DNA from: Nitrosovibrio sp. Nv4
Lineage (GTDB): Bacteria; Pseudomonadota; Alphaproteobacteria; Acetobacterales; Acetobacteraceae
Assembly: GCA_943330455.2 (NCBI GenBank)
Contig: CALQHT020000008.1
Span: 1-47,544 of the forward strand
Direction: 5' to 3'
DNA length: 47,544 nucleotides
Of the stretch, positions 35,181 to 44,219 are shown piece after piece. Position numbers and translations under genes: made by a program. The notes under the pieces are model-generated. The model saw only the letters and a program-made list of their open reading frames with translations, ran no database searches and had not been told where the DNA came from. Numbering within the stretch: the stretch's first letter is position 1; every line of letters starts with the position of its first letter.

Positions 35181-37247
35181 CTACAGCGCAAGGCCGTCGA
35201 GTTGCGGTTGGGCGGCATAGAGCGAGCCTGGCGGTCCGTACTCCTGGAGACCGGCGCGCCTCAGGCCTTCGGTATACCTCGCCAGATCGGGGGCCTGACT
35301 GATCGGAGAGCGGGCGGCAGCTTCCCGGACCGAGAACCCTGGCTCCAGTTCGAGCAGCCGATCCATCACGTCTTTGGCTTCCACGCTTCGATCAAGAAAG
35401 CCCAGAGCGGCGAGATGCCCCTTGTAAGACGAGGAAAACCAAGGGTTCAGCTCGATCGCGGTGCGCCCAACCTCGGTGGCACTTTGGTATTCGCCGAGGA
35501 GCAGGTGCGGCATGATCAATGCCATGTTGAAGAAGAACAAATGTGGGTCTGACGGTGATAATCGCACGGCCTGATACATGCGCCGCAGCGCCTCGTCGTG
35601 CTTGCCCATATAAGAGTGTGCGAGACCGGAAAAGCACCACGCGATTGCCAGATTGGGGTTCAGCGCGAGAGCCCGGTCATGAAGTGTGGAGGCCTCCAAA
35701 GCGCGCTTGCCCAGAAATCCCCGGACATGCCCTGCCAACGTCAGTGAGCGTGCATCCCCTGGATCCAGCATCACAGCGCGTTCGGCCAGGCCGCTTGCGC
35801 GAACCGCGGCTTCCGCCGGCTGCCTTGCCCAGCCCTGGCCGACCAGGAACAGATGCCAATAGGCATACCATGCGTGGGCGATCGCATTCCCGGGCGCCGC
35901 CGACACGGCATCTTCCAACAATGCACCGGCGGCGTGGAACCCGCCCTGTTCCAGACGATAGATCGCTGGTACGGATTGCAGGACCAGTTCGTGCGCCGAC
36001 GGGTCGGTCACCTGTCGGGCGGCGGCGCGTTCCCCCTCGTGGATCAACAAAACGGGATCCAACTGCGCGACGATCGCCGCGCCGATCTCATCCTGGATGA
36101 CGAGGGTGTCGGACACCTCGCGATCGAAACGGCGTGCCCAGATGACCGAACCACCTAGGCGCATGTCCATTAGCCTGACGGTGATCCTGAGCAACTCGCC
36201 GGCCTTCTGGATTGTGCCGTCCAGCACGAAGTCGAGATCAAGGCGCTTCCACAGACTGTCCATGACTGTTTCGCCGGCTAGCGCCGCCCAGGACGTCGCG
36301 GACACACAGGATATCCAACGGAAGCGTGCCAGGGCCGTGGTGATTTCCTCGGCCAAGCCGATCGCGAGCTCCTCGTGCCCGGCGGTTCCGATCAGTCGAA
36401 GCGGGGTGATGCCAATGCGGATTCCAGAGGTTGTGTGGTTCCGCGGGGCCGCGGTCTCCGTCGGGGCAGATGGCTCCTTGGGTGTCGACGCAACGGAGCC
36501 GGCGGCATCTCGAATGGTCAGCGATGCGCGCGCCCGGGCAACGAGTTCCTCCGTCTCCTGGGACGGTTGGGTGTTTCTCGTTTGAGCCAGTATCACCCGA
36601 CACCGTTCGTACGAGCCAAGTGCCGCCGAAGCATCGCCTTGAGCGATTTGTGCCCTGATAACCGCGCGCCAGGCGCCCTCATGGGTTTCGTCCAAGGCCA
36701 ACAGGTGTTTGGCCGTGTCCTGTACGCTGGTGTTGTCCTGTTGGGCGAGCAACATACGCTCACCGATGGATATGCCCTGCCGTACGATCCGTCCGCGCGT
36801 CTCCTCCAGCCAGTGGTCGAACGCCGGATCGAGACCGACGAGGTCCTCGACCAGCGGGGAGGAGAATTGTGCCAATCGCTCGGGGGATGTCTGGTCCGGC
36901 TGTGCCAGGTCCTGGAGGTCGATCCATAGGCCGTCACCTTTCAAGGTGAGGTGATGGCGTTCGGCAGTCAGGAACCGGGTGCCCAACGGGCCGAGGCTGT
37001 CATGCAGATCATGGAGCGCCTGACGCAGTGAGCCTCGGGCCTGGACCGTATCGCGCTGACTCCACAACAAAGATGTCAGTTGCAGCCGCAAGACCGGTTT
37101 CGGATTGGCCAGCGCCAACACGGCGAGCACCGCGCGGGCCTTCCTGGTTCGTGGCAACACCGTCTTTCCCGAAGCATCCTTAGCCGTCAGATGTCCGAAC
37201 AAGTGCAGACGGAGTGATGTGGCATCCCCGAGTTGCTCACGCGTCAT
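35181..37247 (-). CDS. BTAD-TolB-TPR transcriptional regulator (SARP-like)
   Basis: A 688-residue multi-domain regulator. Residues 10-90 are an OmpR-like winged helix (LRLHLFGHLTAKDASGKTVL, RKARAVLAVLAL), and 100-245 a bacterial transcriptional activation (BTAD) region with helices such as AQIAQGDASAALGSYERCR. Residues 270-390 resemble the TolB-like domain of adenylate-cyclase/regulator proteins (RIGITPLRLIGTAGHEELA, LDFVLDGTIQKAGELLRITV). From about 400 to 660 lie TPR repeats such as ALALNPNLAIAWCFSGLAHS. No kinase or cyclase domain is seen. The stop is 169 bases upstream of aapJ, so it may control the transporter. Confidence 0.85.
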   Translation of the reverse strand: MTREQLGDATSLRLHLFGHLTAKDASGKTVLPRTRKARAVLAVLALANPKPVLRLQLTSLLWSQRDTVQARGSLRQALHDLHDSLGPLGTRFLTAERHHLTLKGDGLWIDLQDLAQPDQTSPERLAQFSSPLVEDLVGLDPAFDHWLEETRGRIVRQGISIGERMLLAQQDNTSVQDTAKHLLALDETHEGAWRAVIRAQIAQGDASAALGSYERCRVILAQTRNTQPSQETEELVARARASLTIRDAAGSVASTPKEPSAPTETAAPRNHTTSGIRIGITPLRLIGTAGHEELAIGLAEEITTALARFRWISCVSATSWAALAGETVMDSLWKRLDLDFVLDGTIQKAGELLRITVRLMDMRLGGSVIWARRFDREVSDTLVIQDEIGAAIVAQLDPVLLIHEGERAAARQVTDPSAHELVLQSVPAIYRLEQGGFHAAGALLEDAVSAAPGNAIAHAWYAYWHLFLVGQGWARQPAEAAVRASGLAERAVMLDPGDARSLTLAGHVRGFLGKRALEASTLHDRALALNPNLAIAWCFSGLAHSYMGKHDEALRRMYQAVRLSPSDPHLFFFNMALIMPHLLLGEYQSATEVGRTAIELNPWFSSSYKGHLAALGFLDRSVEAKDVMDRLLELEPGFSVREAAARSPISQAPDLARYTEGLRRAGLQEYGPPGSLYAAQPQLDGLAL

Positions 37248-37531: not shown

Positions 37532-38587
37532 ATGGCAGTACAACCGGGTGTAGCAACGTCTGCCACCCTTACCAGCACGCTCCCCGGTTGGGCGAAACTG
37601 GCGGGAGGTTTGGCGACCTGCAGCGTGATTGCGGTCCTTGCGCAGATCGCCGGACAGGCCGCGCCACTGGTCGGGGCATCGCTGTTTGCGATTGCGATTG
37701 GTGTTGTCATCACCAATGTCGCCGGTAGCGCAATCAAGCTATCGACACTGCGCATTGGTGACGTGAGCAAGCTTTGCCTCAAAGGCGGCATCATCCTCCT
37801 GGGTGCCAGCCTCGATCTTGGGGAAATCTTCCGCACCGGGTGGCATTCCTTGCCGCTTCTGCTCATCACCATGGCATCAGGTTTGATCAGCGCGCTTTGG
37901 CTCGGCAAGGTGCTGGGCATCGATTGGCGGATGCGGTGCCTGATCGGTATGGGGACCACGATCTGTGGTGCATCGGCAATCGCGGCCCTGTCGCCGGTCA
38001 TCCGCGCCCGGGCTGAGGAAATCGCCTATTCGGTGACCGTGATCTTCTTCTTCAATATGGTTGCGGTGTTCACGTTCCCTGCGCTTGGCCACCTGATCGG
38101 CCTGAGCGACACTGGATTTGGCATATGGGCTGGAACCGCAATCAACGATACATCGGCTGTGGTTGCCGCCGGATTCTCATATAGCCAGGATGCTGGCACC
38201 ACGGCCACAATCGTAAAGCTCACCCGCACCACGATGATCATCCCATTGGTGATCGGCTTCGGCCTTGCGGTTCCGTTCTTCCAAAGGCAGGAGGGCGTTC
38301 AAGAAGTGTCTCTGGCCCGGCGCGTGTATCAGGGCATGCCGACCTTCATCTTGTTCTTCATCCTGGCGTCAGCACTGAACTCACTTGGTGTGATTGGGTC
38401 GATGGCGGACCCTATTCAGACTGTCGGACGCTGGGTCATGGTCGTTGCACTGGCTGCGGTGGGTCTGCAAGGTCACTGGCGCGCGTTTGTGGGTGCGGGC
38501 ACCCGGCCCCTGATCCTTGGCTTCGTTTGTTGGTTGGTGGTGGCGCTGACGAGCCTGGGTGTCCAAACATGGGCCGGGGCGCTCTGA
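37532..38587 (+). CDS. YeiH-family putative sulfate/anion exporter
   Basis: A 351-residue membrane protein with about ten helices. The conserved YeiH blocks are LCLKGGIILLGASLDLGEIF, GMGTTICGASAIAALSPVIRA (a helix pair with conserved Cys/Gly), FNMVAVFTFPALGHLIG and WAGTAINDTSAVVAAGFSY. Related proteins are annotated as putative sulfate exporters, and the E. coli member is regulated with anion or nucleoside stress; the true substrate is uncertain. CCGGAGG lies eight bases before the ATG. A small palindrome and an intrinsic terminator follow. Confidence 0.88.
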   Translation: MAVQPGVATSATLTSTLPGWAKLAGGLATCSVIAVLAQIAGQAAPLVGASLFAIAIGVVITNVAGSAIKLSTLRIGDVSKLCLKGGIILLGASLDLGEIFRTGWHSLPLLLITMASGLISALWLGKVLGIDWRMRCLIGMGTTICGASAIAALSPVIRARAEEIAYSVTVIFFFNMVAVFTFPALGHLIGLSDTGFGIWAGTAINDTSAVVAAGFSYSQDAGTTATIVKLTRTTMIIPLVIGFGLAVPFFQRQEGVQEVSLARRVYQGMPTFILFFILASALNSLGVIGSMADPIQTVGRWVMVVALAAVGLQGHWRAFVGAGTRPLILGFVCWLVVALTSLGVQTWAGAL

Positions 38588-38817: not shown

Positions 38818-39087
38818 ATGATTTCTTCAGCTTTTAACATGTCGACCACGTCCGCCTCGCAGGTGACCGCCGCCGTATCACCGTCCCCGATCGACACAGC
38901 TCCGGTTGTCCTCGGTGGCGGCTTTCGGCTTCCGTCGGTCACGACCGCGCCGATTGCGAACAAGTCGTCCCTGACCATTGGTGGTGGCTTCCGTATGCCC
39001 GCGGAACGGATTGCGCCGGTGATCAATCGGCCGAGCATCAGCGTTGGCGGTGGCTTCCGGATGACGAAAGCCAAGCAATCGGCCTGA
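38818..39087 (+). CDS. Triple-repeat GGGFR small protein, candidate peptide precursor
   Basis: An 89-residue protein. After a Ser/Thr/Ala-rich leader of about 25 residues come three 22-residue units, each ending in GGGFR, at residues 33-37, 55-59 and 77-81. GGGFR is followed by Leu-Pro, Met-Pro or Met-Thr. Each unit has Ala-Pro before the glycines (AP at 28-29, 44-45, 66-67). A 22-residue period is exact at the GGGFR positions. No family is recognised with certainty. The layout (leader plus repeated Gly-rich cores with an aromatic residue) recalls precursors of Gly-rich-repeat peptides made by radical-SAM enzymes, but no such enzyme is in this window. The start codon lacks a strong ribosome site; GAAGCGAG lies 9-16 bases upstream. 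Confidence 0.7.
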   Translation: MISSAFNMSTTSASQVTAAVSPSPIDTAPVVLGGGFRLPSVTTAPIANKSSLTIGGGFRMPAERIAPVINRPSISVGGGFRMTKAKQSA

Positions 39088-39096
39088 TCGCCGGGG

Positions 39097-39209
39097 CGGT
39101 CTGCACGGCAGACCGATCCGCTGCCTAAACTGCCTGTCCGCCAGCCGCATCTGCCGCCTCGGTAGCGTTCCGCTAGCCGAGGCGCCCCCCATGGTCTTCA
39201 ATCATGGGG
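39097..39209 (+). terminator. Three consecutive hairpins after the repeat-protein gene
   Basis: First hairpin: CGGTCTGC, three-base loop, GCAGACCG (39097-39115). Second: GCCTCGG-TAGCG with CGCTAGCCGAGGC, one bulge (about 39155-39183). Third: CCCCATG (39187-39193), nine bases, CATGGGG (39203-39209), followed by CTCTTT. Together they form a structured 3' region, with the last likely terminating. The rest of this ~370-base gap to the next gene shows nothing. Confidence 0.6.
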
Positions 39210-39460
39210 CTCTTTCCCGCTTCATAATCATCGCTTGTACCGTTAGCCGCCGGCCCCGACAGGTCGTTCGCTCTTCGTGTACTGTGCCGCGTTTTCAGCG
39301 GCGGTGCTTTTCGCGCCGCTTAGGGAGCGCAACGGTGCCGTCCACCCGGGAGGAGACCTTCTTCTGCGGTTCCTGGAGATCATTCTGGGGATCGTACCGG
39401 TCGGGCCGTATCGGCCTTTGTCGTTCGGCTACCAGGTACAGCTCGCAGGGACATCTACCG

Positions 39461-40252
39461 ATGGATAGCGCCAATCCTGTTGTTCGCTTCTACCGACTGG
39501 CCGGCCAGGCCCGTCCGCCCCAGAGGGCCGATCGTTCAGCTTGTGGCACGCTGCCGACGCGTGCCTATCGGTACTGCGAGGCGGTGACCAGCGCATCCGC
39601 CTTCGGATGGTGGGTATTCCCCCCCATCGATCTGCAACTGATGTGGGATGGTAGCGATGTCTTCTGGTACCATGATGGTGCCGACGATTGGATGCCGCTG
39701 TTGCCATCGGCACAGCTTCCGGGCTTCGCGGCCGAATTCGATCGAGCCTCCCCCGACCGCCTGACGGGGTTCGCACCGCCATTCCTTACGGCTTTGCCGG
39801 AAGCGGGCGCTGTGCAGATTTGGACCGGGCTGATGGTTCGCACGCGGCCCGACTGGCATCTGCTGGTGCGGGCGCCCGCTAATCTTCCGACCCCAGGGGG
39901 GTTCGTCCTTTACGAAGGCATCGTCGAGTCAGATACTTGGTTTGGCCCGCTATTCACCAACATGCGTTTCACGCGGAGCCATTCTCCGATACGCTTGCGG
40001 GCTGATTTTCCTCTCCTGCAGATCCAACCGGTCCCGCGTGAGGCCTATGCCAGTCCCATTTTGTCGTCCACATCTCTGGTGCCGGATATGGGGGCGATGA
40101 CTGAGGGGGATTGGGATGACTATCGCCGGACGATAGTGCTCCCCAATCAGGATCCCGATCGCCCGTTTGGCGCTTATGCGACCGCGGCTCGCAAGAAGAA
40201 CCATGCTGCTGCTAGCGCCGCTGGCAAGTGTCCGGTCATGGCTCACTCGTAA
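39461..40252 (+). CDS. Uncharacterised protein, DUF6065-like
   Basis: A 263-residue protein without signal or membrane helix. Its middle is strongly patterned: RYCEAVTSASAFGWWVFPP, then LMWDGSDVFWYHDG, then GFAPPFLTALPEAGAVQIWTG, then VRTRPDWHLLVRAPAN, and FGPLFTNMRFTRSHSPIRL. These alternating Trp/Gly blocks look like a small beta-rich domain and remind me of the DUF6065 family; a profile search must confirm. The start at 39461 follows CAGGGA by about ten bases; an in-frame extension upstream is non-coding (hairpins). Function unknown. It follows the GGGFR repeat gene on the same strand. Confidence 0.75.
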   Translation: MDSANPVVRFYRLAGQARPPQRADRSACGTLPTRAYRYCEAVTSASAFGWWVFPPIDLQLMWDGSDVFWYHDGADDWMPLLPSAQLPGFAAEFDRASPDRLTGFAPPFLTALPEAGAVQIWTGLMVRTRPDWHLLVRAPANLPTPGGFVLYEGIVESDTWFGPLFTNMRFTRSHSPIRLRADFPLLQIQPVPREAYASPILSSTSLVPDMGAMTEGDWDDYRRTIVLPNQDPDRPFGAYATAARKKNHAAASAAGKCPVMAHS

Positions 40253-40327: not shown

Positions 40328-40798
40328 TTATGTCGGGATCATTCTTCCCCAACCAAATCGCCGTCCTGCCCGAAACAAGAAGTCAACGAGTTCGCCGACG
40401 GGCGGTGTTTGTGCTGCCATCGTGACCGATGTCAGATTATTCACCTCGCACACGGCCTCCGCCGCACCCATCAGGATGGGGTCTTCGCCGGTTAGAAACA
40501 GGATCGGGAGATCCCGGTCGTGCCGAGCGACCTCCATCATGACGTGGAAGCCATCCTGTCCGTGGCCATCAGCCTCGGTGATGATAGCCATGGGTCGCAA
40601 GCTTTCGAGGCGGCGGCTGACAGTCTGATCAGATGTCAGAGTTTCGACCGCCAAGCCTAGGAAGTCACACACCATTTCGAGAGATTGAGCGAGGGTGCCG
40701 TTGTCCGTCACAATGAGTACTAACGCCTGGATATCCTGGTCGGACATCCGTCGATCGAGGCGGGAGAAAGAACGCTCAATTTGGGCTGTTCCGTCCAT
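40328..40798 (-). CDS. Degenerate response-regulator receiver domain protein
   Basis: A 156-residue protein that is essentially one receiver domain (residues 24-145). Strand 1 is LVLIVTDNGTL, with only one of the usual acidic pair. Strand 3 reads AIITEADGHGQDGFHVM; the residue aligned to the phospho-accepting Asp is Glu75, seven before the Asp of DGF. Thr103 in ILFLTGED matches the conserved Thr. The Lys of strand 5 is not evident. An Asp-to-Glu change can mimic phosphorylation, so it may be constitutively active or non-phosphorylated. GGAG precedes the ATG at 40798. It has no output domain. Confidence 0.78.
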   Translation of the reverse strand: MDGTAQIERSFSRLDRRMSDQDIQALVLIVTDNGTLAQSLEMVCDFLGLAVETLTSDQTVSRRLESLRPMAIITEADGHGQDGFHVMMEVARHDRDLPILFLTGEDPILMGAAEAVCEVNNLTSVTMAAQTPPVGELVDFLFRAGRRFGWGRMIPT

Positions 40799-40830
40799 GG
40801 GGAATCTCCGGTAGTGCGATGGGTGCTTAA

Positions 40831-40878
40831 CGGCAGGTGGCACCTTTACCTGTCTTCCTGATGGCGTCAGGTTTGCCG
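40831..40878 (-). promoter_or_regulatory. Structured leader candidate before the receiver gene
   Basis: On the minus strand CGGCA (40878-40874) and TGCCG (40835-40831) enclose two hairpins: CCTGA-CGCCA-TCAGG (40871-40857) and CAGGT...ACCTG (40852-40834), joined by AAGA. The result resembles a compact three-way junction 33 bases before the ATG. It may be a regulatory RNA element; I cannot match it to a known riboswitch. Confidence 0.3.
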
Positions 40879-41060
40879 ATCTTTGAGCGGCAGTGACAGA
40901 CAGGGTAGGGTTAGTAGTGCGTTGCCTTGCGCGATTACGGCGTGAAATATCGTGAAACGCCGTTTGAAGGCGCTGCTCGCTCCCAGCGCGCCGCCCCGGA
41001 GACCGGATGGGCCAGTGGCGGCTAGGCGGACGCCTCGATCCAGGGCATAGGAAAAAAAGC
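40879..41060. other. Non-coding gap between receiver and phage genes
   Basis: No gene recognised. This stretch contains the presumed left edge of the phage module; no tRNA or direct repeat that would mark an attachment site is visible here. Confidence 0.35.
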
Positions 41061-41106
41061 TTGCCCACTTACCCCAGGATAGGCTATAAATCTGGATATG
41101 ATAGCC
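41061..41106 (+). promoter_or_regulatory. Phage promoter with overlapping inverted repeat
   Basis: TTGCCC (41061-41066), 18 bases, TATAAA (41085-41090). GGCTAT at 41082-41087 overlaps the -10 and is inverted as ATAGCC at 41101-41106, a plausible operator. The first phage gene starts 53 bases downstream. Confidence 0.4.
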
Positions 41107-41158: not shown

Positions 41159-41434
41159 ATGACAGTTTCCAATGAGTTGTCTCCTCTCGACGTGCTCCTC
41201 CATGCGATGCAAAGCAAGTGGCAAGCGGGGGATCACGACGGTGCGGTGGCTATCGCACGAGCCGCCGCACCCTATGTTCATGCTCGGCGTCGTGACGGGA
41301 CCTCCTCGGTCAACCCGGAACCAGACTTACACCGCATAGGTGATGCAGAGCTCACTGACCAACTGGCTGAAGCTCGAAGACGAGTTTTCGACCAGGCAAC
41401 GCCTGAGGAGCAGTCTGCTCGAATGGGCGACTGA
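41159..41434 (+). CDS. Small phage protein upstream of the terminase
   Basis: A 91-residue soluble protein, helical and charged. The pattern LLHAMQSKWQAGDHDGAVAIARAAAPYVHARR followed by DLHRIGDAELTDQLAEARRR is of the kind found in short proteins coded just before terminase genes in alphaproteobacterial prophages. It may be a small terminase subunit or accessory factor. Its end overlaps the terminase gene by 95 bases in another frame. Ribosome site weak. Confidence 0.65.
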   Translation: MTVSNELSPLDVLLHAMQSKWQAGDHDGAVAIARAAAPYVHARRRDGTSSVNPEPDLHRIGDAELTDQLAEARRRVFDQATPEEQSARMGD

Positions 41435-42764
41435 AGTCCTTCGGCCGCACGGCCAAGCACCGGCCCTGCATCATCGCTATCTATTAGACGCTTTGGGCGA
41501 CGTGACACGTGGTTCCGTGGATCGCCTTATGGTCCTAATGCCGCCTGGTTCTGCCAAATCAACCTATGCCTCGGTCCTGTTTCCGGCTTGGTGGTTTGCG
41601 CAACATCCGGGTTCTTCGGTTATCGCTGTCTCGCATACCCATGGCCTCGCCGAAACATTCAGCCGGCGTGTCCGAGAACTGATGCTGGCGCGACAGGGGC
41701 AGTTGGGTATCAGCCTGAACAGAAGCGAACGATCCGCGGCCCATTGGCGGTTGGCTTCTGGGGGGGAATACATCGCCGCGGGGATCCGCGGCGCCATTAC
41801 CGGCCGCCGGGCTGATCTGATCATTATCGACGATCCGATCAAGTCACTGGTGGAAGCGGAAGGTCAGCTACACCGAGAGCAGATATGGCAGTGGTATCGC
41901 TCTGATTTGACCACCAGATTGAAACCAAACGGTCGAATTATATTGATAATGACCCGCTGGCACGAGGACGACCTCGGTGGAACGCTGCTGGCCAACCACG
42001 CGGCCGATTGGCGTGTCATCCGTCTTCCAGCCCTCGCGGAATCGGATGATCCCCTGGGACGAGCAATTGGTGAACCGCTCTGGCCGGAGTGGGAAGATAC
42101 GACCGCGCTGCTGCGGAAGCGAGAACTGGTCGGAGAACGAACATGGGCATCACTATTCCAGCAGTCGCCCAGGCCGATATCTGGCGGGGTATTCAAGGTC
42201 AGTGCTCTGTCAATGTTGGACAATTTGTCCACCGGGCGCCAGGATCAGGTTGTCCGAGCCTGGGACCTCGCTGCTACTTTGGCAGCACCGGGTACCGATC
42301 CAGATTGGACGGTTGGAATTAAATTGCACAAGGATAGTGAACAGCGCTTCACGATTTTGGACGTGGTGCGCCTTCGTGGCACTCCTCGACAGGTTGAAGA
42401 CGCCATCGTTTCGACTGCACGGATTGATGGTGTCGGTGTTGCGATCGGATTACCCGAGGATCCGGGTCAGGCAGGAAAAAGCCAGGTCGCATACCTTGCG
42501 GGGCGACTTGCCGGCTATCGATTGCTGACATCTCGGGAAAGCGGGTCGAAACTGGTTCGTGCCTTGCCTGTCGCATCGCAAATGGAAGCAGGCAACGTGG
42601 CCATGATCCGAGCTAATTGGAACCACATACTGATTGAGGAACTACGTGAGTTTCCGGGCGGACGCAAAGATGATCAAGTCGATGCTCTAGTCAGGGCCTT
42701 CACAACCCAAATGCGTATCGGCACGCCGACCCGACAATCGATGATTCCGTTCCTTGCCCGATAG
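41340..42764 (+). CDS. Phage terminase large subunit
   Basis: A 474-residue motor that packages DNA into proheads. The ATPase has Walker A MPPGSAKST (67-75), motif AVSHT around 96, and Walker B LIIIDDP (Asp164, Asp165), followed by MTRWHEDDLGG. The C-terminal nuclease (RNase-H fold) has Asp309 in RAWDLA and Asp residues in FPGGRKDDQVDALV. The Walker A variant GSAKST is common in this terminase branch. GTG at 41340 and ATG three bases later are both possible starts. It overlaps the preceding small gene by 95 bases. Confidence 0.93.
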   Translation: MMQSSLTNWLKLEDEFSTRQRLRSSLLEWATEVLRPHGQAPALHHRYLLDALGDVTRGSVDRLMVLMPPGSAKSTYASVLFPAWWFAQHPGSSVIAVSHTHGLAETFSRRVRELMLARQGQLGISLNRSERSAAHWRLASGGEYIAAGIRGAITGRRADLIIIDDPIKSLVEAEGQLHREQIWQWYRSDLTTRLKPNGRIILIMTRWHEDDLGGTLLANHAADWRVIRLPALAESDDPLGRAIGEPLWPEWEDTTALLRKRELVGERTWASLFQQSPRPISGGVFKVSALSMLDNLSTGRQDQVVRAWDLAATLAAPGTDPDWTVGIKLHKDSEQRFTILDVVRLRGTPRQVEDAIVSTARIDGVGVAIGLPEDPGQAGKSQVAYLAGRLAGYRLLTSRESGSKLVRALPVASQMEAGNVAMIRANWNHILIEELREFPGGRKDDQVDALVRAFTTQMRIGTPTRQSMIPFLAR

Positions 42765-42803
42765 GTATTATCCCCAAGCCAACCCTCGCCTATCAGGATC
42801 AAT

Positions 42804-44219
42804 ATGTTCGACACGATATGCGACTTGATTCCCCGTGACCTGGATTATTCGGACCGCACGCGGACTCTGGATATTCTGACAAGGGTTCTCGAAGGTCGTC
42901 TCTACAACGTCTTGCCGTACAAATTCCATGAAGAACGTGGGAGCGGTGGGGAATACATACCCTTGAGGAACCGCCGGCCCAGCGTCCGGTATCCACTCTC
43001 TCGCATCGTGGTGGAAGATAGTGTCTCCCTGTTGTTCAGCGAAGGCCATTTTCCCACTGTCGACTGCCCCGATCGGGATGCACAGCAAGCGATAGCCGAC
43101 ATATTCAAAGAATCCCGTCTCAATCTGGTCATGACGGAGGCAGCGACTCGCGGGTCGATCGGTTCCGCGGCTATATTGCTCCGGGTTCTTCGTGGTCGGG
43201 TTTTCTTTCAGATACTCAATACTATGTTCCTGACGCCAACCTGGGACCCCGAAGAGCCCGATACGTTGTCGCAGGTGGTCGAGAGATACAAACTGCCCGG
43301 GCGTGCCTTGCAGCAGGCCGGCTACGCGATCGATGAGCCAGGTGCCGAACATTGGTTTACCCGTTGTTGGGATTTAGAGTGCGAGACGTGGTTCGAACCC
43401 TATCCGGTTGGCGGCTCTGATCGATTGATCATCGATGAACAGCGAACCGTACGTCATGGTCTGGGATTCGTGCCGATCACCTGGATAAAGAACCTGCCCG
43501 GGCCATCTTCGACGGGAGACGTCAACGAAGGTGCTTGTACCTTTCGGCCTGCGATAGAAACCCAGATCGAAATCGACTATCAACTGAGCCAAGCGGGTCG
43601 TGGGCTGAAATATAGCAGCGATCCGACTCTCCTTCTGAAAGAACCGGCGGCGTTGGACCGGGATCTCGTGCGTGGAGCAGGCAATGCGCTCATTGTCGGC
43701 GAGCACGGCGACGCACGCCTGCTTGAAATCGGCGGCACAGCGTCTGCCGCGGTTATCGAGTATGTCAGGACCCTTCGAGAGCTTGCTCTCGAAAGTCTCC
43801 ATGGCAACCGCGCCAGCCCAGACCGTCTAACGGCCGCCCAGTCCGGACGGGCGCTTGAATTGCTAAATCAGGGCTTGATCTGGCTGGCAGATAACTTGCG
43901 TATCACTTATGGGGAGGGCGCCATACTTGATCTGGTCAAGATGATATCTCAGGCATCCCGACGCTACCCGCTTAGGGTGCGTGGACGTCCCATAGCTCCG
44001 ATCGACGCCCAAATGGCGTTCACATTGAAATGGCCGCGGTGGTACTCCCCTACCGCGGAGGACAGGCAGCGTGACGCGCAAACGCTCGCGACGCTTGCGA
44101 CATCGGGGCACCTGAGCCGGGAGACCGCGGTGAAGTCCATCGCCGATACATTCGATATCGAGGACATAAGGGTGGAACTCGATCGAATAGCCGCAGATTA
44201 CTCGAATAAGGATCAGTAA
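42804..44219 (+). CDS. Phage portal protein
   Basis: A 471-residue protein in the right position and size for the dodecameric portal through which DNA enters the head. Visible features are an N-terminal region with YPLSRIVVEDSVSLLFSEG, a mid-section with HGLGFVPITWIKNLPGPSS, then FRPAIETQIEIDYQLSQAGRG, and a C-terminal helical region GRALELLNQGLIWLADNLRITYG (the stem/wing helix). It resembles the SPP1-type portal fold. Its TAA overlaps the next ATG by one base (TAATG). Confidence 0.83.
   Translation: MFDTICDLIPRDLDYSDRTRTLDILTRVLEGRLYNVLPYKFHEERGSGGEYIPLRNRRPSVRYPLSRIVVEDSVSLLFSEGHFPTVDCPDRDAQQAIADIFKESRLNLVMTEAATRGSIGSAAILLRVLRGRVFFQILNTMFLTPTWDPEEPDTLSQVVERYKLPGRALQQAGYAIDEPGAEHWFTRCWDLECETWFEPYPVGGSDRLIIDEQRTVRHGLGFVPITWIKNLPGPSSTGDVNEGACTFRPAIETQIEIDYQLSQAGRGLKYSSDPTLLLKEPAALDRDLVRGAGNALIVGEHGDARLLEIGGTASAAVIEYVRTLRELALESLHGNRASPDRLTAAQSGRALELLNQGLIWLADNLRITYGEGAILDLVKMISQASRRYPLRVRGRPIAPIDAQMAFTLKWPRWYSPTAEDRQRDAQTLATLATSGHLSRETAVKSIADTFDIEDIRVELDRIAADYSNKDQ

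Follow-up and report, generated by a model that had tools for sequence, protein, structure and literature searches.

A tandem-repeat peptide gene linked to a DUF6065 gene: a candidate RiPP-like cassette with a predicted dUTPase-fold partner

Results and Discussion

The gene for a short protein made of tandem units and the gene for an uncharacterised protein of the DUF6065 family are physically linked in several bacterial lineages. The explanation that we tentatively favor, while giving it somewhat less than an even chance, is a RiPP-like cassette in which the repeat peptide would be the substrate (precursor) of a DUF6065 protein predicted to have a dUTPase fold. We infer that DUF6065 acts on the peptide from the linkage and from conserved polar residues; modification rather than mere binding, as well as the chemistry, export and control of the putative product, are parts of a proposed scheme. 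The main rival is a role in binding only.

The repeat peptide locus

The window (the whole stretch of 47,544 nucleotides analysed) carries the 89-aa ORF 5' of the 263-aa DUF6065 gene, with a gap of 373 nt between them (Table 1). An earlier note on this DNA had described GGGFR at residues 33, 55 and 77 of the short protein with an exact period of 22, each copy being preceded by Ala-Pro and followed by a hydrophobic residue; the sequence bears this out, the following residues being L, M and M. The three hairpins it had placed between the two genes were recovered by folding. For a 153-nt intergenic stretch the folding energy is -61.1 kcal/mol (z -2.15), and an Rfam search of the window found no RNA family. 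Such folded spacers are common 3' of the peptide gene, with z below -2 in 37 of 66 cases (mononucleotide shuffles), as they are after the peptide gene in many precursor operons. The 263-residue protein, previously called DUF6065-like, matched Pfam PF19541 at 50.2 bits (cut-off 26.6). Its open frame extends further 5', yet the alignment of relatives begins at ATG 39461, which we took as the start. The 89-residue protein matched no Pfam family, and its sole NCBIfam match, PVV_CTERM, covered 14 residues and was below the cut-off.

Table 1. Features of the peptide/DUF6065 locus in the window
Feature	Positions	Strand	Basis
BTAD/TPR transcriptional regulator, divergent, recurrent neighbor	35181..37247	-	profile and neighbor clustering
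YeiH-family (PF03601) membrane transporter, between regulator and repeat gene	37532..38587	+	recurs in 18 loci
Repeat peptide gene, three 22-residue units, 89 aa	38818..39087	+	ORF/sequence
GGGFR, unit 1 (residues 33-37)	38914..38928	+	sequence
GGGFR, unit 2 (residues 55-59)	38980..38994	+	sequence
GGGFR, unit 3 (residues 77-81)	39046..39060	+	sequence
Hairpin 1, intergenic	39092..39120	+	folding
Hairpin 2, intergenic	39155..39184	+	folding
Hairpin 3, intergenic	39187..39209	+	folding
DUF6065 protein, repeat-associated subgroup, 263 aa, predicted dUTPase-like (beta-clip) fold	39461..40252	+	Pfam match, AF2

The immediate neighbors of the peptide gene are the genes for the BTAD/TPR regulator, the YeiH transporter, the DUF6065 protein and a response-regulator-like protein (40328-41068, minus strand); a similarly placed family was found downstream in 21 loci. 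About 1.1 kb past DUF6065, the window encodes a phage terminase large subunit and a portal protein (41340-44219, plus strand), and terminase genes lie close to DUF6065 in 5 named-genome loci, which raises the possibility that a prophage or gene-transfer-agent-like element adjoins the cassette. A phage origin was considered and rejected: no phage record matched, and one IMG/VR contig did.

The repeat unit is under protein-level selection

To place the peptide in a wider context, relatives were gathered by searching congeners and named genomes. The DUF6065 subgroup is carried by Acetobacteraceae (Rhodopila, Acidisphaera, Roseomonas, Siccirubricoccus), Elioraea, Sneathiella, Rhizobium and one betaproteobacterial MAG, and a short same-strand ORF with at least one unit lies directly 5' of nearly every subgroup gene. 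Across 82 different peptides the number of units varies from 1 to 19, some peptides being only 22-33 aa long. The unit consensus is TADxG[KR][VI]RLG[GA], and after weighting by locus it reads T-A-D(0.88)-x-G(0.76)-[KR](0.88)-[VI](0.97)-R-L-G(1.00)-[GA]-x-x-[RP]-[LT]-[PL], the search pattern itself accounting in part for the [VI], L and G columns. Units are ~14-25 residues long around a core [KR][VI]x[LI]G. Their variants include GGGFRLP, GGFAPTL, GGMAPSL, GNMSPAF, GSGNIQDM and tandem TIGGGYR heptads, together with GKSKVKLGMMAPAF, which has a 14-residue period (L310), and, in Rhizobium, DDGKVHIANKSPAF. The three window units are diverged members of this family that kept GGGFR and its surroundings and lost the DxGK part. 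The leader of about 25 residues proposed for the window peptide is not general, the first unit of many relatives beginning at residue 5-15.

Of 64 loci, 54 have a strict unit pattern on the coding strand in the 1.3 kb 5' of DUF6065, with 138 matches or 1.66 per kb, against 3 matches (0.0018 per kb, ~950-fold rarer) in all remaining sequence of the same loci. Inspection by eye of the ten loci without the strict pattern found a diverged unit in seven (L109, L121, L149, L154, L181, L187, L188), a weak one in L174 and none in L117 and L180. Copies within an array differ mostly by synonymous changes (pN/pS 0.2), which shows that the repeat frame is under protein-level selection; this ratio and the enrichment 5' of DUF6065 together indicate that the repeat is more than a chance feature. 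When the window was compared with its L109 orthologues, the DUF6065 proteins were 92% identical and the peptides 59% (pN/pS 0.5), with three units against two. In the source genome, the unit was found solely at DUF6065 loci, and repeat units accompany all three DUF6065 paralogues (C8, C87, C404).

The earlier note had held that its proposal would fall if the repeats did not vary in number, if the homologues lay away from DUF6065 genes or if the frame were untranslated. Instead, unit number varies widely, the repeat homologues almost always adjoin a DUF6065 gene, and the protein-level selection supports translation. Its suggestion that the neighboring 263-residue protein might be the partner is, judging by linkage, the right lead.

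Tandem units of this kind could also be HET-s or RHIM-like beta-arch motifs, with the repeat protein forming the fibers of a functional amyloid, but we consider this improbable. One peptide (L178) did match Pfam HET-s_218-289 (PF11558) at 1e-5 and some units are RHIM-like (VQIGDGN, L099). However, the best HET-s score was 25.9 bits against a cut-off of 32.2 and came from that one peptide only, while eight and then two further repeat peptides had no HET-s match. As unrelated families score equally via repeat summing (CysA_C_terminal, 3.1e-5), HET-s homology was rejected as evidence. In addition, no other protein with the motif was found in the source genome as a templating partner, and the 14-residue L310 units and the single-unit peptides are at odds with a single rung length.

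Unit type follows the DUF6065 clade

The seven unit types, assigned by our own patterns, were mapped on a quickly built tree of 94 DUF6065 proteins (87 labelled rows, some long branches), where they required 6 changes, the minimum possible, and at least 23 in each of 200 shuffles, a wide difference despite the limits of the tree and of the type assignment. Unit type thus tracks the DUF6065 clade, which shows co-inheritance of the peptide and DUF6065 and not contact between them, as common ancestry alone would produce the same pattern. A readthrough fusion of the two was also considered and was rejected, since their reading frames coincide in 38 of 110 loci, the share expected by chance.

Members of the core branch of DUF6065 (PF19541) are homologous to the window protein (profile-profile probability 99.9%), but a screen of their loci found no unit-like upstream ORF, and the BTAD/TPR regulator was present in 0 of 18. 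Some core-branch proteins are fusions, with a JmjC/cupin-like C-terminal part (L227, L232, by sequence) or with SapC (L231, Pfam 2.8e-35).

The DUF6065 protein has a predicted dUTPase-like fold

An AF2 model of the window DUF6065 protein was obtained with a pLDDT of 88.3 from a 29-sequence alignment. It matched the dUTPase 3ecy_A with a Foldseek E of 5.7e-6 (VIA Z 11.8, rmsd 3.0 over 119 residues), and the best 50 structural matches listed from the PDB were all dUTPases. These predictions support a dUTPase (beta-clip) fold for the subgroup protein. A PDB sequence search with the DUF6065 profile gave no match. Aligned with local dUTPase profiles, DUF6065 falls in register at a probability of only 6%, and in this low-confidence alignment E156-S-D158 lies on motif III (I-D-x-D-Y), with Glu at the position of the catalytic Asp, and PAN lies on motif II (PRS). 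None of the 29 aligned proteins carries a C-terminal Gly-rich motif V (GGFGSTG type). C39, G153, D158 and R169 are kept across all 29, and N141, E156 and N167 in 90% or more. The likeness to the dUTPase / dCTP deaminase superfamily would therefore be one of fold, whereas the dUTPase catalytic motifs appear to be lacking. An ordinary dUTPase is encoded elsewhere in the source genome, and a role of DUF6065 as a true dUTPase is not supported. The idea that GGGFR supplies motif V in trans was set aside, the likeness being probably superficial, as non-Gly units occur in other clades (ANKSPAF, GMMAPAF).

A dUTPase-like fold with probable loss of the dUTPase motifs would suit a non-catalytic partner, and binding to other proteins, Stl among them, is known for dUTPase-fold proteins (PDB entries). 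The repeat peptide could then be a scaffold, inhibitor or regulatory ligand of the DUF6065 protein, for example at a trimer interface, with the unit number setting how many protomers are gathered. The close co-inheritance of unit type with DUF6065 clade would also be expected, as would the failure to recognise a known maturase among the recurrent neighbors. However, single-unit peptides of 22-33 aa would make poor scaffolds, and exporters adjoin the pair in several lineages, which this reading does not predict. When L132 was modelled with AF2 as one in-frame read-through product (peptide, spacer and DUF6065), the peptide was unstructured and undocked with a pLDDT under 50, although this model is uninformative on a trimer interface. 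On balance, we find such a binding-only role rather unlikely.

Regulators and transporters near the pair

The neighborhood of the pair was then explored for recurrent genes. A BTAD/TPR regulator lies nearby in 35 of the 43 named-genome loci with full flanks, upstream and divergent in 28 and downstream and convergent in 7. This recurrence in two gene orders, and the resemblance of the repeated units to repeat pheromone precursors, could suggest that units are excised as a peptide signal that the neighboring regulator detects through its TPR domain. We think this doubtful, to about the same degree as an amyloid, because Sneathiella, Rhizobium and most Elioraea loci have the peptide and DUF6065 but not the regulator, no peptidase was recognised in the cassette and no signal sequence was seen by eye.

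Transporter genes vary with the lineage. The YeiH-type gene separates the regulator from the peptide gene in 18 loci, an EamA gene lies directly 3' of DUF6065 in L089 (the locus of a source-genome paralogue), L094, L099 and L188, and an MFS gene follows DUF6065 in L156, L177 and Rhizobium; in many loci the operon lacks an exporter. The Rhizobium cassette consists of the gene for an annotated 83-aa protein of three 22-residue units, a 16 nt gap, DUF6065 and then the MFS gene. In Rhizobium sp. SRDI969 this MFS gene is intact, and its start codon and the stop codon of DUF6065 overlap; Rhizobium sp. WSM4643, a related strain, has it broken into two ORFs (L278:6843-7861 and L316:3762-4904, both plus strand). 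A longer array in SRDI969 was rejected, the 128-aa annotation being the identical peptide with an earlier start. A FAD-binding monooxygenase-like gene (L094:10300-11535, plus strand) after the EamA gene might encode a second tailoring enzyme. In Sinorhizobium medicae plasmids (L317:4471-5684, plus strand), a distant DUF6065 gene overlaps the gene of a 169-aa protein that lacks repeats, and an S8 peptidase is encoded nearby.

Clustering of the recurrent neighbors, few of which are annotated by profile, revealed no known maturase family or peptidase. The layout of Gly-rich-repeat peptides processed by radical-SAM enzymes, which the earlier note had raised, shares Gly-rich repeated cores with the window peptide but was not supported. 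The aromatic position varies (F, Y, M, I, A, C and W occur), other clades carry GGFAPTL, GNMSPAF or ANKSPAF, and no radical SAM gene was found on the 627-kb Rhizobium plasmid bearing the cassette, among the recurrent neighbors or next to the window peptide gene.

A possible RiPP-like cassette

In the RiPP-like scheme, the short repeat protein would be the substrate of the DUF6065 protein, whose gene comes immediately next. Each unit would be both recognition site and modified core, making a separate leader unneeded and leaving unit number free to drift. The units would be acted on by DUF6065, a dUTPase-like scaffold in which Cys39, Glu156 and Asp158 are conserved. Export of the product in several lineages would fall to the downstream EamA or MFS transporter, or perhaps to YeiH in the window, and expression would be under the control of the neighboring BTAD/TPR regulator. 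What is seen is a short peptide gene beside that of a dedicated partner with a putative processing role, and the lead-in before the units is short and variable. Together with the occasional exporter and the folded spacer, this arrangement resembles a RiPP cassette. Counting against the scheme are the undocked peptide of the AF2 read-through model, which does not settle the choice between substrate and ligand, the many loci with no exporter, and the lack of a recognised maturase or peptidase among the recurrent neighbors. To our knowledge, no known RiPP maturase has the dUTPase fold.

Multi-core RiPP cassettes such as those of microviridin precursors (PMC5934393) likewise combine a short repeated precursor, a dedicated protein and, in some lineages, an exporter; the present cassette differs in having no recognised maturase, little or no leader, a partner with a predicted dUTPase fold and a modification that is putative. 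The further step to a new peptide-modifying class, in which a dUTPase-fold enzyme works on the tandem units of a leaderless repeat peptide to give an exported peptide-derived product, seems to us a less probable outcome than the RiPP-like cassette itself. We know of no case of a dUTPase-like fold acting on peptides, so that it would be an added fold.

No published description of DUF6065, PF19541 or the unit strings was found in the open literature, most subscription papers being outside the scope of the search. The almost constant position of a repeat peptide before an uncharacterised DUF6065 protein, sometimes beside an exporter gene, points to a route, so far undescribed, by which a short peptide product is made or used. 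The copy-number series, with a smallest peptide of 22 aa, and the occurrence of paralogous pairs in a single genome should ease in vitro testing. DUF6065, a domain of unknown function, thereby gains a concrete partner and a testable hypothesis: if the cassette is a RiPP system, it would provide a new maturase scaffold, and if not, a new peptide-protein pair.
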